A stretch of DNA of 64,000 nucleotides from Glycomyces buryatensis (lineage in GTDB: Bacteria > Actinomycetota > Actinomycetes > Mycobacteriales > Micromonosporaceae). The notes under the pieces were generated by a model, which saw nothing but the letters and a program-made list of their open reading frames with translations, did no database searches and was not told where the DNA came from. The translations under genes were made by a program, and so were the position numbers. Location of the stretch: NCBI RefSeq assembly GCF_004912275.1, contig NZ_STGY01000066.1, forward strand, positions 62,001-126,000, in the 5' to 3' direction. Positions 7,194-13,358 of this stretch are shown in pieces (position 1 is the first letter of the stretch; the number at the start of each line of letters is the position of its first letter).

Positions 7194-7889
7194 TCACCTC
7201 GCGGTCTCCGTTCCGCCGCGGCGCGGCCAGGTCACCGCGAGGCCGGCGAGCGCCAGTAGGACCGGGATGCCGGTCGGCAGGAACGGGGCGGTGGCGAGGG
7301 CGATGGCCGCGCCGACCAGTGCGGCCAGGAGCGTGCCGCGGTCCTTCAGCGCCGGGACCAGGAGCGCGAGCAGCAGGGCCGGGAAGGCGGCGTCGAGGCC
7401 GAGGACCGCCGGGTCGGCGATGTAGCCGCCGGCCAGGACGCCGATGACGGTGCCGACGTTCCAGGCGATGAAGAGGATGACGCTGGTGGCCCAGAACGCG
7501 GTCTTGGCGCGCCGCCTGTCCTCGCCGGCGGCCAGGGCGAACGCGGTGGACTGGTCGATGAGCATGTGGGTGCCGAGCAGGCGGGTCCACCAGTGCTTCC
7601 AGTACAGGTCGCCCACGGCCAGGCCGTAGGGGATGTGGCGGAGGTGGATGACGATCCCGGCGACGAGTCCGGCGATGACGCCGCCGCCGGCGGTGATCAC
7701 GGCGAGCATCGCGAACTGGGAGGTGGCGGCGAAGGTCAGGAACGACATGGCGACGGGGATCCACCAGGGCAGGCCGGCGGTGGTGGCGAGGGCGCCGAAG
7801 GAGGCGCCGACGATGGCGATGCCGATCGCCATGGCTCCGGCGTCGCGGTAGACGTCCCGGTCGCGGTTGGGCAGGAAGCGGGGAGACAC
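7194..7889 (-). CDS. azlC: AzlC-family branched-chain amino acid exporter large subunit
   Basis: 231-residue membrane protein of the AzlC/YgaZ family. The recognisable core runs from GIAIVGASFGALATTAGLPWWIPVAMSFLTF through SQFAMLAVITAGGG and HIPYGLAVGDLYW, with about seven or more helices. It pairs with AzlD immediately downstream. The start is taken as the GTG at 7889 (VSPRFLPNRDRD); a longer upstream reading runs into unrelated repeat sequence. The first codons and the whole 5' flank lie inside a 101-bp sequence copied again at 11669-11769. This suggests that azlC once lay directly next to glnA and was separated from it by an insertion (inference). Confidence 0.87.
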   Translation of the reverse strand: MSPRFLPNRDRDVYRDAGAMAIGIAIVGASFGALATTAGLPWWIPVAMSFLTFAATSQFAMLAVITAGGGVIAGLVAGIVIHLRHIPYGLAVGDLYWKHWWTRLLGTHMLIDQSTAFALAAGEDRRRAKTAFWATSVILFIAWNVGTVIGVLAGGYIADPAVLGLDAAFPALLLALLVPALKDRGTLLAALVGAAIALATAPFLPTGIPVLLALAGLAVTWPRRGGTETAR

Positions 7890-7956
7890 CGGGCGAGTAT
7901 GCCTGGTGACTAGCCGACCGGCAAGCAAGGGGCGCGGCCGGTGTGAACCAGCCGCG
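7856..7956. repeat. Direct repeat copy A (101 bp) flanking the graspetide-remnant island
   Basis: 97 of 101 bases match copy B at 11669-11769, in the same orientation and without gaps; three mismatches cluster at 7905-7908 and one lies at 7930. The copy includes the azlC start codon, its first codons and the 5' flank. Outside these borders the two copies diverge at once. The distance between copies is 3813 bases. Confidence 0.95.
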
Positions 7957-8016: not shown

Positions 8017-8241
8017 CTAGTCGATCTCGCCGGACTTGATTCCGGAAAGCAAACCCGTGAAGTCGCCTGTGGGCAAATCGAAAATCGGGGAGGAGTCTCC
8101 AAGCTTCGTATCCGCGATACCAAAACCTCCACCTTCGTAGAGGACCTCAACGCATTCACCGCTGGTGCCGCCGTTGCTCCTGCTGCTCTTGCGGCGCTGC
8201 GCGCGAGCCCACTTGTCTTGGTTGCAGGCCCTTTGAGTCAT
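8017..8241 (-). CDS. DUF397-domain protein
   Basis: 74-residue DUF397 protein, recognisable from RKSSRSNGGTSGECVEV in the N-terminal half followed by GIADTKLGDSSPIFDLP and a C-terminal amphipathic stretch. In actinomycetes these small proteins are very often encoded directly downstream of an XRE/DUF5753 regulator, with which they are thought to form a regulatory pair affecting development or antibiotic genes. The ATG overlaps the stop of the upstream XRE gene by 4 bases, so the pair was translationally coupled. Since the XRE gene has lost its 5' end, this gene may no longer be expressed from its original promoter. Confidence 0.88.
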   Translation of the reverse strand: MTQRACNQDKWARAQRRKSSRSNGGTSGECVEVLYEGGGFGIADTKLGDSSPIFDLPTGDFTGLLSGIKSGEID

Positions 8242-8999
8242 TGCTCCACTTCCCTCAACAATTCTTCCAAAAGTCTGTTGGTTTGCTCAGCATCTTGGGC
8301 TCCCTCGTCCCAGAGGAAATCGAAGGCGTCCAGAGCCGATCTCAAGTCTATGCCGCCGCTGTCACCGATAACCGGGCCGATCGGCGTCTCGACATGGACC
8401 AGAGTCGGCCATCCTGCTGGCAGTTTCATGACGGTGAATCCTGCGGTGACCTCAGTGACCGTGGGACAGTCGGTATTGATCGGCAGATAGCGAATCTCGA
8501 CGTTCGCGTACTCGGCAACCTCGCGCAGATACCGGAACTGCGCAGCGTAGATATCCCTGGTGACGATGCGGAGTCGCTGGCGCAAGATGCCTTCGTAGAG
8601 CAGGAAACGTGCGGTCGGGGCGTTTGGCTTTACCAGGATGTCGGATCTGGCGAGACGAATTTCGATGTAGTTCTCAATATCCGCCTCGCTGCTGCCTCTC
8701 TCGCCGTGGCGGATCAATACCTCGGCCAGTTCCGGTGCTTGTAGCGGGCCAGGGAAGTTCGAGATGTGGTAACCATCGATCTCGGTGGCTTTGTCCTCAC
8801 CCCACAGGAAGTCAGAGAAACCCTGGGTGGAGACCGCGCTCCAGAGTCCTCGCTTGCGCGCCTCCTCGGCGCGGTGGCGAAGCTGCGACCGTGTCTGTCG
8901 GTCGGTGACCCCGAGGACGTCCATGATCGGAGTCAAGTCCTTGAGTTCGACCTCCAAGATGCCTTGTTCCAACTTGGCGAGCGTGGGTCTACTGATCTT
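8238..8999 (-). pseudogene. XRE-family regulator with DUF5753 domain, 5'-truncated
   Basis: The C-terminal DUF5753 domain is intact (HISNFPGPLQAPELAEVLI through VEIRYLPINTDCPTVTE to FDFLWDEGAQ). The protein normally begins with about 30-40 residues of helix-turn-helix that are missing. Homology starts only at KISRPTLAKLEQG, the recognition helix, whose first base is near 8999. Upstream the frame closes at a TGA (9033-9035) with no good start; the first possible start (TTG at 8972) would lie inside the helix. The break coincides with the 5' truncation of the ATP-grasp gene on the other strand, so one deletion probably removed both 5' ends and the promoter region between them. It is unlikely to bind DNA normally. 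Confidence 0.75.
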
Positions 9000-9033
9000 C
9001 CGCCACCGACTATCGGTGTCGCCCAGCAGCGCT

Positions 9034-9619
9034 CACAAGCCCAGGCAACTGAATCTCGCTGTGTCCGTTGGCCTCCGGGTCCCTGCCACGTACATCGGCA
9101 ATGATCCTGAGCAAGCGAAGGCGTTCGCGAAGCTGCACGGCCCGCACTTGATCGCGAAGGCGTTCCAGCCGAACCTGTGGGTCGAGCACGGGGTTGCTCG
9201 AACTACCTGGACCACCCGAATCACCGTCGACCAGCTCAATGATGAGGGGTTCGGCGTCACCGCGAACCTCATCCAAGCATGGGTCGAAAAGGACCTCGAG
9301 GTTCGCGTCATCGTCGTCGGAGATGACGCGTTCGCCGTCCGGATCGACGCTCACTCTGATGCGGCCCGCATCGACTTCCGCTCGGACTACGACGCGGTCA
9401 CCTACCAACTGATCGGCCTTCCCGAACGTCCTATGCGGGCTGCAAGCGTTCATGGCTCGCATGGGGCTGCTGTACGCAGCCTTCGACTTCGCGGTCACAC
9501 CGTCCGGAGATTGGATTTTCTTTGAATGCAACCCCAGCGGCCAGTGGCAATGGCTCGAAGGCGAAACCGGCGCGGCAATCAGCAACGCAATCGCCCAGCT
9601 CCTAATCTGTGAGGCATGA
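9034..9619 (+). pseudogene. ATP-grasp graspetide (RiPP) maturase, 5'-truncated and frameshifted
   Basis: Homology to TgmB/MvdD-type ATP-grasp peptide maturases starts abruptly at about HKPRQLNLAVSVGLRVP and runs through AKAFQPNLWVEHG and LIQAWVEKDLEVRVIVVGDDAFAV. At about 9422-9450 it moves into the next reading frame, where the rest of the fold continues: AFDFAVTPSGDWIFFECNPS with GQWQWLEGETG, the terminal Mg/ATP-binding ECNP motif. About the first third (pre-ATP-grasp region) is gone. Such enzymes make macrolactone or macrolactam links in graspetides. The stop overlaps the methyltransferase ATG (ATGA), as in functional operons. No precursor peptide gene remains. Confidence 0.8.
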
Positions 9620-10734
9620 TGACCACCGAGACTGACTGGCGGCCCCTGGCCGCCGCGCTTACCGAGGAGATCTCGCACGAGGTCAGCCTGAGTCCCGAGT
9701 GGCGGGAAGCGTTCGAGCAGACCCCCCGGCACCGCTTCGTCCCGGAAGTCCCACTCGAAGCGGCATACCAGGACGAATCCATTGTCATCAAGACCATCAA
9801 TGATCGTGGCTTCGACTGGCCGACCAGCTCATCGACCAAACCTAGTCTCATGGCCTACATGCTTATGATGCTCCGACTCGAAGACGATCACACAGTGCTG
9901 GAGATCGGCACCGGCAGCGGCTACAACGCCGCGCTCCTTTGCGATCGTCTCGATGCCGCCTCGGTGGCCGCGTTCGACCTCGGCCCCAAACAGGTCGCCT
10001 CGATCGACCTGGACCCGGACCTCGTCGCCGCAGCCGAACAGCGCCTCCTGTCCATCGGCCGCGGTCCTGACCTCATCGCCGGAGACGGGCGCAAGATCGC
10101 CTTCCCCGGTCGCGCCTTCGACCGCATCATCGTGACGGCGGGCGCTCGACGCGTCCCTGCGGCTTGGGCTGAACAACTCAACGACGGCGGCATGATCGTC
10201 ACCGATCTCGGGGGCCGCAGTCAACCGCGCATCATCCGCCTCACCAAGGAGGCGGACGGCCGCCTGCTCGGCAAGTTCCGCCACCGGCCCGGCTGGTTCA
10301 TGCCCCTGCGCCCGGACGCCGGCCACCCGGCAGAGGACCCCGGCAATCCGAACGGCGCTCTCGACCTCACCGGGGAAACTCGCCTCACGAACCCGCCTGT
10401 GCCTCCTGTGTTCCTGGACGAAGCCCACACCGGCCTCGCCTTCGCAGTCGACTTCTTCCTGCAACCAACGATGCTGGTCGATCAGCTTCGAGACGGATCG
10501 CCCGGCGTCCTCATCACCACCGAAGACGGGTCCTGGATCGAAATCGACCCCAATGGAAACACCACCACCGCTGGACCGACCTCACTTGCCGAACCCCTGG
10601 AACAGATCACGTCCGAATGGAAGCGGCTCAACGAACCTGAGGACGCCGACCTCCGACTGATCGTCACCCCCGATGACGCTCATACCCTCTACGCCCACGA
10701 CTTCGAGCACCGATGGGAAGAACCGCAGGCATGA
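9616..10734 (+). CDS. Graspetide-associated PIMT-like methyltransferase
   Basis: 372-residue SAM-dependent methyltransferase of the protein-L-isoaspartate O-methyltransferase (PIMT) superfamily. SAM motif I is [15 protein letters not shown] near residues 95-109; the region before it ([16 protein letters not shown]) matches the PIMT active-site loop, and [13 protein letters not shown] is motif III. A C-terminal extension of about 150 residues distinguishes it from housekeeping PIMT (about 210 residues) and fits the methyltransferases encoded beside ATP-grasp peptide maturases. In graspetides such as fuscimiditide the homologue methylates an Asp to form an aspartimide. The gene overlaps both neighbours by 4 bases. 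It is intact although its ATP-grasp partner is broken. Confidence 0.88.
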
Positions 10735-11657
10735 ACCAACCCCTGCGGATCGTGACCCGCTCATCCCCGATGGCGCTCGCCCAGGTTGAGCGGGTCCGTT
10801 CCCTTCTCGCCGAGACCGATCCCGGCCTTGCGGTCGAGGTCGTTCCCATCACTACCACCGCCGACAAATGGACCGGGAGCCTCACCGCGCTCGGCGGGAA
10901 GGCCAACTTCGTCAAAGAGATTGATGCAGTCCTCGCGGCCGGCGCCGCCGACGTAGCAGTCCACTGCCTCAAAGACATGCCAGGTGAAACGCCGCTTCCT
11001 GAGGGCATGACCATCGCCGCCTACCTGGATCGCGACGACGTCCGCGACTGCCTCATCAGCCCTGCCGGGCACACACTCGCCGAGCTACCGCAAGGTTCGA
11101 GGGTCGGTACCTCCTCGGTTCGACGCCGCGCCCAACTCGCGGCCATCCGGCCAGACCTGGAATTCGAGGACTTCAGAGGCAACGCCAACCGGCGCCTGGA
11201 GAAGCTGTTCAACGGTGAGGTCGATGCCGCGGTTTTGGCCGTCTCCGGACTCGAACGCATCGGCCGGACCGAGGTCATCACCGAGGTATTCGAGCCCGAG
11301 ACGGTCCTGCCTCCGGTCGGCGCGGGCATCCTCGCCCTCCAATGCCGCGAAGACGACAGCACCACCATCGGAGTCCTCGCTCCCCTGAACGACCCGAAGA
11401 CATGGCGTGAAGCCGACTGTGAGCGAATGTTTCTTCATGTGCTGCAAGGCCACTGCAACTCTCCGATTGCGGGCTACGCCACCGAGGCCAATGGTGAGTT
11501 GACGTTGCGCGGAGCGGTGTACTCCCTGGACGGCAAAACTGTGCTCACGGCACGAGAGACGGCCGGGGCGCTCGCGCCGGCCGACCTCGGAACCGCCGTG
11601 GCGCTCGCCATCGCCCAGCAGGGTGGGCGCGGCCTCATCGAGAGCATCGACCACTAG
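10731..11657 (+). CDS. HemC-like hydroxymethylbilane synthase coupled to graspetide methyltransferase
   Basis: 308-residue protein of the porphobilinogen deaminase family. Visible landmarks are [20 protein letters not shown] with the catalytic Asp at residue 82, [12 protein letters not shown], the FRGNANRRL arginine cluster, [13 protein letters not shown] and [13 protein letters not shown] with the dipyrromethane-cofactor Cys at residue 242. It therefore has the residues for catalysis but deviates at normally invariant places (HSMKD is HCLKD, GGKGLF is GGKANF). Its ATG overlaps the methyltransferase stop (ATGA), and no hemA, hemB, hemD or hemL is near. It may be a divergent paralogue recruited to the peptide cluster rather than the housekeeping enzyme (inference). 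The start at 10731 is preferred over an upstream 10713 reading. Confidence 0.85.
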
Positions 11658-11668
11658 AGACGCTCGGG

Positions 11669-11769
11669 CCCGGTCGCGGTTGGGCAGGAAGCGGGGAGAC
11701 ACCGGGCGAGTATGCCTCGCTACTAGCCGACCGGCAAGCAAGAGGCGCGGCCGGTGTGAACCAGCCGCG
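11669..11769. repeat. Direct repeat copy B (101 bp) flanking the graspetide-remnant island
   Basis: Second copy of 7856-7956, 97 of 101 identical. It carries the orphaned beginning of azlC (VSPRFLPNRDRA on the minus strand), which leads nowhere here, so this copy looks like the duplicated side. It also contains most of the glnA terminator hairpin. Confidence 0.95.
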
Positions 11770-11788: not shown

Positions 11789-13213
11789 TTAGACCTCGTA
11801 GTACAGGTCGAACTCGTGCGGAGTCGGGCGGAGGCGGATCGGGTCGATCTCGTTCTCGCGCTTGAAGCTGATCCACGTCTCGATGAGGTCGGGCGTGAAC
11901 ACGCCGCCCTCGGTGAGGAAGTCGTGGTCGGCCTCGAGGTTGTCCAGCACCTGGTCGAGCGAGCCGGGGACTTGGGCGATGTCGCCGTACTCCTCCGGGC
12001 CGAGCTCGTACAGGTCCTTGTCGACCGGCGCCGGCGGCTCGATCTTGTTCTTGACGCCGTCCAGGCCCGCCATGAGCATGGCCGAGAAGGCCAGGTACGG
12101 GTTGCTCGACGGGTCCGGCACGCGGAACTCGACGCGCTTGGCCTTGGCGTTCGAACCGGTGACCGGGATGCGGGTGCACGCGGAGCGGTTGCGCTGCGAG
12201 TAGACCAGGTTGACCGGGGCCTCGAAGCCGGGCACCAGGCGGCGGTAGGAGTTCACCGACGGGTTGGTGAAGGCCAGCAGGCTCGGGGCGTGCTTGAGCA
12301 GGCCGCCGATGTAGTGGCGGGCGGTGTCCGAGAGGCCGGCGTAACCGGTCTCGTCGTAGAACAGCGGCTCGCCGTTCGCCCACAGCGACTGGTGGGTGTG
12401 CATGCCCGAGCCGTTGTCGCCGAACAGCGGCTTCGGCATGAAGGTCACCGTCTTGTTGGCCTGGGTGGCGGTGTTCTTGATGATGTACTTGAACTTCTGG
12501 ACGTCGTCGCCGGAGTGCAGCAGCGTGTCGAAGCGGTAGTTGATCTCCGCCTGGCCCGCGGTGCCGACCTCGTGGTGGGCGCGCTCGATGGTGAGGCCGC
12601 CCTCGATGAGGTTGGTGACCATCTGGTCGCGCAGGTCCGCGAAGTGGTCGACCGGGCCGACCGGGAAGTACCCGCCCTTGTGGCGCGGCTTGTAACCGAG
12701 GTTGCCGCCCTCTTCCACGGCGCCGGTGTTCCACGCGCCCTCGATCGAGTCGACGTGGTAGAACGACTCGTTCGCCTTGGTGTCGAAGCGGACCGAGTCG
12801 AAGATGTAGAACTCGGCCTCGGCGCCGAAGTAGGCGGTGTCGGCGATGCCGGAGCCGGCCAGGTACTGCTCGGCCTTCTTCGCGACGTTGCGCGGGTCGC
12901 GGCTGTAGGCCTCGCGCGTGAACGGGTCGTGGATGAAGAAGTTCAACGCGAGGGTCTTCTGCTCGCGGAAGGGGTCGAGGAAGGCGGTGGCGACGTCGGG
13001 GAGCAGGAGCATGTCCGACTCGTGGATCTCCTGGAACCCGCGGATCGAGGACCCGTCGAAGGCCAGGCCCTCTTCGAGCAGATCGGCATCGAAGGACGCG
13101 GCCGGGATGTTGAAGTGCTGCATGACGCCGGGCAGGTCGCAGAAGCGGACGTCGATGAACTTCACGTCATTGTCACGGACGTATCCGAGGAGCTCTTCAG
13201 GGCTGGAAAACAC
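11789..13213 (-). CDS. glnA: Type I glutamine synthetase
   Basis: 474-residue GSI-beta glutamine synthetase, making glutamine from glutamate, ammonia and ATP. The start is set at the GTG at 13213 ([15 protein letters not shown]), which has AGAGGAA seven bases upstream; a longer reading from 13267 adds 18 non-conserved residues. Conserved parts include the DGSSIRGF loop, AEAEFYIFD and [18 protein letters not shown] and the [17 protein letters not shown] region follow. The [11 protein letters not shown] segment near residue 400 carries the adenylylation tyrosine. It is therefore the GlnE-regulated housekeeping enzyme. A GlnR box lies about 150 bases upstream. Confidence 0.98.
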
Positions 13214-13358
13214 GAATGTGTTCCTCTCGGTAGGTAGGCCTTGTAGAAGTGACCTTGTAGCAGTCACCTGGACGCATGGCTCGCGATCACAGCCAAGTGC
13301 GCGGGCACCGACGTCGCTGTCGACACCACTGTATTAGGCGAAACGCTAACCGCGATCA

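Follow-up and report, generated by a model that had tools for sequence, protein, structure and literature searches.

A hydroxymethylbilane synthase paralogue beside decayed graspetide genes in Glycomyces buryatensis belongs to a separate HemC clade

Results

Organization of the hemC2 locus

Among the enzymes of primary metabolism, hydroxymethylbilane synthase (HemC) is a textbook case. A paralogue of this enzyme, here called HemC2, is encoded in the window, by which we mean the whole stretch of 64,000 nucleotides of Glycomyces buryatensis DNA that was analysed (part of contig NZ_STGY01000066.1), within a block bounded by direct repeats and shared with genes of the graspetide type. The features of the block and of its flanks, in window coordinates, are as follows.

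7194..7915, minus strand: azlC (PF03591; start approximate), left flank of the block
7856..7956, plus strand: left 101-bp direct repeat (azlC 5′ end and intergenic region), 96% identical to the right copy
8017..8241, minus strand: DUF397 protein (PF04149)
8238..8972, minus strand: XRE-family regulator (DUF5753; NF058600, PF19054), N-terminal DNA-binding part cut off, in-frame stop upstream
9028..9438, plus strand: ATP-grasp remnant 1, middle part (TIGR04187 positions 121-255; the N-terminal ~120 model positions are missing)
9425..9604, plus strand: ATP-grasp remnant 2, C-terminal part in another reading frame (TIGR04187 positions 252-311, by three-frame translation)
9616..10734, plus strand: RiPP-type protein-L-(iso)aspartate O-methyltransferase (PIMT), TIGR04188-like, 372 aa, open frame
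10731..11657, plus strand: hemC2, hydroxymethylbilane synthase paralogue, 308 aa (TIGR00212, PF01379, PF03900, tree, AlphaFold2)
11669..11769, plus strand: right 101-bp direct repeat, beside glnA; other genomes, in which the site is empty, have a single diverged or partial copy
11789..13267, minus strand: glnA (TIGR00653), right flank of the block; neighbours azlC in ten further Glycomyces genomes

The hemC2 reading frame is intact and scores 322.8 bits against TIGR00212 in a profile search (cut-off 164), with both Pfam domains of porphobilinogen (PBG) deaminase, PF01379 and PF03900, present. Its start overlaps the stop codon of the PIMT gene by four bases (ATGA), which bears out the overlap with a methyltransferase gene recorded in the initial annotation, and no other haem gene stands beside it, again as described there. 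The two residues that the initial annotation had singled out are both present: Asp82 aligns with Asp84 of Escherichia coli HemC and Cys242 with E. coli Cys242, the catalytic aspartate and the cofactor cysteine of the family, respectively; the active-site arginines and Lys59 referred to below are likewise named by their usual roles in the family. An AlphaFold2 model of the protein (pLDDT 90.9) has 1pda as its best match in the PDB (TM 0.92/0.96). The window HemC2 is a genuine paralogue and, judging from the conserved residues and the predicted fold, probably an active one.

Decay of the RiPP-type neighbours

The graspetide ATP-grasp gene of the window is broken, its two pieces matching different parts of the 312-position TIGR04187 model in different frames. 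The PIMT gene downstream retains an open frame; the product scores 227 bits against TIGR04188, the cut-off of which is 380, and is 59-60% identical (dN/dS 0.31) to its homologue in another Glycomyces genome, G003, which stands beside an intact ATP-grasp gene and scores 208 bits. On the other side of the ATP-grasp pieces, the frame of the XRE-family regulator covers positions 41-279 of 280 of NF058600 with 72.5 bits, below the cut-off. The first start codon of this frame lies 56 bp from ATP-grasp piece 1, and the open frame runs on into that piece, leaving no room for a precursor gene between the two at the window locus. The losses of the XRE and ATP-grasp genes meet, by eye, at ~9010-9031, from which we infer a single deletion junction that would also have removed any precursor gene. 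In outline, the genes upstream of hemC2 are the same as in fuscimiditide-type graspetide clusters (TIGR04187/TIGR04188); the locus departs from such clusters in its disrupted ATP-grasp gene and its lack of a precursor. What the initial annotation called a "RiPP operon" is a decayed remnant.

The block between glnA and azlC

The block containing hemC2 is ~3.7 kb long and is flanked by the 101-bp direct repeats. Matches to the repeat were found in 11 of the 21 other Glycomyces genomes, the other ten having none. Eleven loci were fetched on this basis. In 10 of them, glnA directly adjoins azlC, with a gap of 81 to 255 bases as measured between the matches, and the repeat is present once between the two genes, in diverged or partial form; the eleventh locus (L245) contains neither gene. 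Given the empty site and the single repeat copy in other genomes, the block is most simply read as an insertion accompanied by duplication of its target region. A tRNA gene as the insertion site was considered and discarded, ARAGORN finding zero tRNAs within the window.

HemC2 forms a clade apart from housekeeping HemC

The initial annotation expected a housekeeping copy of hemC elsewhere in the genome, and the assembly (5.8 Mb in 87 contigs) does encode one. It lies on contig C9 in the order glutamyl-tRNA reductase gene (hemA), hemC, a hemD-type gene and the porphobilinogen synthase gene (hemB), where the hemD-type gene matches models of both uroporphyrinogen-III methyltransferase and synthase, each below the cut-off. 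The window copy is therefore not the sole hemC of its genome. Against TIGR00212, the housekeeping protein scores 284.8 bits compared with the 322.8 bits of the window copy.

The phylogenetic tree was built from 103 of the 143 distinct HemC proteins, leaving out near-duplicates from genus g88, rows shorter than 290 aa and L163; the rows comprise 56 HemC2, 44 housekeeping HemC and three proteins outside both groups (L044, L164 and L167). HemC2 forms a clade with support of 100/99 which includes the window copy, whereas the housekeeping group of 44 holds the window genome's own HemC and three other Glycomyces copies. Forcing the window copy together with these four housekeeping Glycomyces proteins is rejected by the AU test (p-AU 8.75e-64), so that, together with the tree, a place within the housekeeping clade of its genus is ruled out. 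A second hemC, a separate clade and the AU test all uphold the view that the window gene encodes a HemC paralogue. Within HemC2, the window copy belongs to a group of five rows (100/100) with those of Glycomyces G003 and G009 and two Promicromonospora, and this group is nested among rows from g88 and copies from named Streptomyces plasmids, a pattern that indicates transfer between lineages. Genus g88 itself is, we infer, Streptomyces. Another kind of extra HemC occurs in this genus, in G509 (L164) and G519 (L167), falling outside both HemC2 and housekeeping HemC and carrying the motifs VHSLKD and CSVPV.

Conserved residues and constraint

Residues were counted, in E. coli numbering, in 93 HemC2 and 44 housekeeping proteins drawn from the same 143; six that fit neither group by score (L025, L044, L163, L164, L167 and L178) were left uncounted, two of which, L025 and L178, fall inside the HemC2 clade of the tree. 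The catalytic machinery is almost invariant in HemC2: Asp84, Lys59 and Lys83 are kept in all 93 proteins, Cys242 in 92, Ser13 in 91, and the arginines Arg131, Arg132 and Arg155 in 93, Arg11 and Arg149 in 92 and Arg176 in 91. HemC2 thus has the fold, the catalytic aspartate, the cofactor cysteine, the active-site arginines and Lys59 in common with E. coli HemC (1PDA), from which it differs in its separate clade, in its position outside a haem operon and in several substitutions. At the threshold used, 16 positions distinguish HemC2 from the 44 housekeeping proteins, among them Ser81→Cys, Gln198→Ala and the loop around Cys242 (GHCNSPI). Ser81→Cys is present in 89 of 93 HemC2 proteins versus none of 44 housekeeping ones, and HCLKD is accordingly a signature of the clade and not a mark of the window locus. 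The motifs HCLKD and GGKAN, pointed out initially as deviant, do read as quoted; the residue after GGK is Gly in 85 and Ala in 5 of the 93, GGKA not being clade-wide.

Pairwise dN/dS of the window HemC2 is low, at 0.20, 0.18 and 0.17 with respect to the orthologues of G009, G003 and P. umidemergens. However, an equally low value (0.21) is obtained for piece 1 of the disrupted ATP-grasp gene, and the pairwise values for HemC2 are hence no proof of constraint since the insertion.

Spread of HemC2

In the class sample of 394 genomes, at least 40 encode a HemC2 of at least 240 bits, counting that of the window (best five candidates per genome scored); in Glycomyces, 4 of 22 genomes do. In g88, 39 of 61 genomes have a copy of at least 200 bits, the one of G524 being partial; a further partial copy, in G486, was not counted. 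Besides its housekeeping HemC, the genome of G009 encodes HemC2 twice in full length, together with a C-terminal fragment that is HemC-like (contigs C55, C10, the latter being locus L049, and C20, L057 7748-8074). In the plasmid collection, 10 of 82 matching records contain a copy at 60-80% identity. Phage carriage was set aside; the 12 matching records of the phage collection are all below 60% identity. Hits to hemC also turn up in the plasmid collection for many proteobacteria, for example Escherichia, Salmonella, Klebsiella and Sulfitobacter; they are ~40% identical to HemC2, and several of the records are chromosome-sized. A haem-type HemC operon in alphaproteobacteria is mentioned in PMC7641849.

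The genomic context of HemC2 varies. Six plasmid copies (four at 61-64% and two at 45-46% identity) have differing annotated neighbours, with no common pathway among them, and no neighbour common to most HemC2 genes was seen in the loci inspected; three g88 loci (L091, L093 and L095) have one neighbourhood in common.

HemC2 rarely adjoins a graspetide methyltransferase

We surveyed 94 stretches upstream of HemC2 and dropped L183 (66 bases, repeating the L085 locus) and L103 (5 bases). Among the 92 usable regions, 84 are at least 1.4 kb long and the other eight measure between 787 and 1047 bases. A graspetide PIMT lies directly upstream of HemC2 in one of the 92, and that one is the window itself. 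From the side of the methyltransferase, at least 37 PIMT matches were obtained at E ≤ 1e-28 in the 394-genome sample (best five candidates per genome), 35 of them outside the window genome; a single one of those 35 matches listed has a HemC2 gene within 10 kb, though not adjacent (G292, locus L104). L104 and its sister HemC2 locus L107, both from another actinobacterial family, have TIGR04188-like genes below the cut-off 3-6 kb upstream, namely two methyltransferases at L104 and one gene at L107 that falls below the E ≤ 1e-28 threshold; neither locus has a match to the ATP-grasp pieces of the window at E ≤ 1e-4.

Within Glycomyces, a PIMT at E ≤ 1e-40 is encoded in 2 of 22 genomes, those of the window and of G003. 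In G003 (L058 4931-7305, contig C26), the ATP-grasp gene is intact (334.9 bits against TIGR04187, whose cut-off is 350) and is followed by the PIMT gene and then by a HemC2 relic of 25 residues at 88% identity, which indicates that PIMT and HemC2 once adjoined in more than one genome. Just upstream of the ATP-grasp gene there is a 77-residue reading frame (L058 4931-5164) which, by its place and make-up, could be a candidate precursor. An intact HemC2 is also encoded elsewhere in G003 and could still serve the ATP-grasp-PIMT pair from that site.

As to whether HemC genes recur beside ATP-grasp/PIMT pairs, a question raised by the initial annotation, the answer is thus confined to the window and the one relic: HemC2 behind a PIMT is a rare and partly decayed arrangement. 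We therefore regard it as very unlikely that HemC2 is a dedicated enzyme of a graspetide pathway, translationally coupled to the PIMT and either modifying the peptide or supplying a pyrrole unit. Such a role would account for the four-base overlap, for the order of PIMT and relic in G003 and for the TIGR04188-like genes at L104 and L107, but it sits poorly with the single adjoining case among 92 regions, with the single, non-adjacent neighbour among the 35 PIMT matches listed, with the broken ATP-grasp gene and the lack of room for a precursor at the locus, and with G003, which has lost the adjoining HemC2 and yet keeps ATP-grasp and PIMT. The recruitment to a graspetide or other RiPP pathway suggested initially is consequently not sustained. 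A survey of graspetides names TIGR04188 as a frequent neighbour (PMC8939145); porphobilinogen and hemC are both absent from its wording, and porphobilinogen is likewise absent from that of the pamtide paper (PMC10787088). Our searches of the open-access literature returned nothing for graspetide with hydroxymethylbilane synthase, or for ATP-grasp or RiPP with porphobilinogen deaminase.

HemB2 as a recurring partner of HemC2

The only recurring partner of HemC2 that we found is HemB2, a homologue of PBG synthase (PF00490; model pLDDT 87.8, best match 1b4e). It is encoded upstream of HemC2 in 6 of the 92 usable regions, from six genomes of several families, and most HemC2 genes stand alone. In five of the six, a 191-aa SAM methyltransferase (MT) is encoded between HemB2 and HemC2, and short MT relics occur without HemB2 in three other upstream regions. 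The remaining 82 of 92 regions contain no HemB2, MT or PIMT at E ≤ 0.01. The HemB2 genes located just upstream of HemC2 are as follows.

L040, 6433-7404: HemB2
L041, 6423-7403: HemB2
L042, 6425-7402: HemB2
L105, 9185-10087, minus strand: HemB2
L224, 7758-8735, minus strand: HemB2

The match to the sixth, at L135, is split in two, and the gene may be broken. A search with an alignment of four HemB2 sequences (A1), in which the best 5-7 candidates per genome were scored, found HemB2 above 400 bits in at least 2 of 394 and at least 2 of 299 genomes of two overlapping samples, each time just upstream of HemC2. The scores are 593 bits in G003, 579 in G009 and 433 in G336, all three of which contributed to A1, and 420 in G238, and the other HemB matches listed reach 184 bits or less.

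HemB2 was compared with housekeeping HemB at the Schiff-base lysines and the metal-site cysteines. Neither lysine is present in any of the five HemB2 proteins covering each site, as opposed to both in all 36 housekeeping HemB, and the three cysteines are kept in all six HemB2. A new lysine appears in 6/6 HemB2 where the 36 housekeeping proteins have Met, Ile or Leu; it lies within a Val-Lys-hydrophobic-Phe motif, likewise in all six, and on a strand according to predicted secondary structure. Relative to E. coli HemB (1B4E), HemB2 has retained the fold, the three-cysteine metal site and the positions of Ser273 and Gln220, and differs by the loss of both Schiff-base lysines and by the new conserved lysine. 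Because the lysines of the known mechanism are missing, HemB2 may make no porphobilinogen at all.

This association bears on two further explanations. The first holds that HemC2 is a reserve form of hydroxymethylbilane synthase, or one tolerant of inhibitors, which safeguards haem synthesis through target duplication and has spread on mobile DNA. Its solitary occurrence on plasmids and at diverse locations, with the catalytic residues kept and position 81 and the cofactor loop changed throughout the clade, would fit such a function, which nevertheless leaves the linkage to a HemB2 devoid of the catalytic lysines unexplained, and we consider it unlikely. The second, that HemC2 is merely redundant, an additional and almost neutral copy without any distinct role, appears quite improbable: the full HemC equivalog score, the solitary position of most copies and the absence of any other haem gene beside the window copy are compatible with redundancy, but HemC2 forms a deep clade apart that has a conserved signature, shows low dN/dS over the whole divergence and is linked to HemB2 in six genomes of several families.

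Discussion

Collectively, the evidence favours a reading that we regard as likely, in which HemC2 is a mobile and distinct clade of hydroxymethylbilane synthases that some actinobacteria possess in addition to the housekeeping HemC, and which in the window is a passenger or stand-alone gene rather than a tailoring enzyme of a graspetide. As judged from sequence and model, HemC2 would most likely carry a dipyrromethane cofactor on Cys242 and, by means of Asp82, would most likely join units of porphobilinogen, or of a closely similar compound, to form a linear oligopyrrole. The HemB2-MT-HemC2 module presumably makes a specialised pyrrole-derived product, and many of the solo HemC2 genes could be what remains after loss of HemB2 and MT. 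In the window, a block would have been inserted between glnA and azlC, placing HemC2 behind the methyltransferase of a decayed graspetide set.

A more specific scheme is possible, if doubtful. HemB2, its reactive lysine having shifted from both classical positions to a different barrel strand that bears the Val-Lys-hydrophobic-Phe motif, would make a pyrrole other than PBG, which the MT may modify and HemC2 would polymerise into a non-haem oligopyrrole; the whole would constitute a mobile, previously undescribed module for pyrrole formation, of which solo HemC2 would be the last remnant, unless it uses porphobilinogen.

Paralogues of haem biosynthesis genes in putative specialised-metabolism clusters have a precedent. 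The tolyporphin clusters of the cyanobacterium HT-58-2 contain hemA, hemL, hemB, hemC, hemE and two hemF along with tol genes, according to PMC10459692, and hem paralogues in putative tolyporphin clusters also figure in PMC10548856. In this respect, the HemB2-MT-HemC2 arrangement resembles the tolyporphin clusters, and the initial suggestion that a HemC paralogue in specialised metabolism would be new has to be withdrawn, since hemC is already part of such a cluster. Unlike tolyporphin clusters, which comprise a near-complete porphyrinogen route, the loci described here contain at most a HemB-like protein, an MT and HemC, and the window contains HemC alone. Among the papers listed by our open-access literature searches, we noticed none that deals with an additional HemC in Streptomyces or with HemC alongside graspetides.

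For the window, our results correct the initial picture: the RiPP neighbourhood consists of an inserted block that has decayed, and the link between HemC and RiPP genes is therefore not to be read as a pathway. The more interesting lead lies outside the window, in the HemB2-MT-HemC2 operon. A widespread accessory HemC branch that has a conserved active-site signature and is linked in some genomes to a HemB devoid of the lysines of the known mechanism would suggest that Streptomyces and its relatives have a new oligopyrrole route, and the pair provides a natural test of which residues of HemB and HemC set the product.
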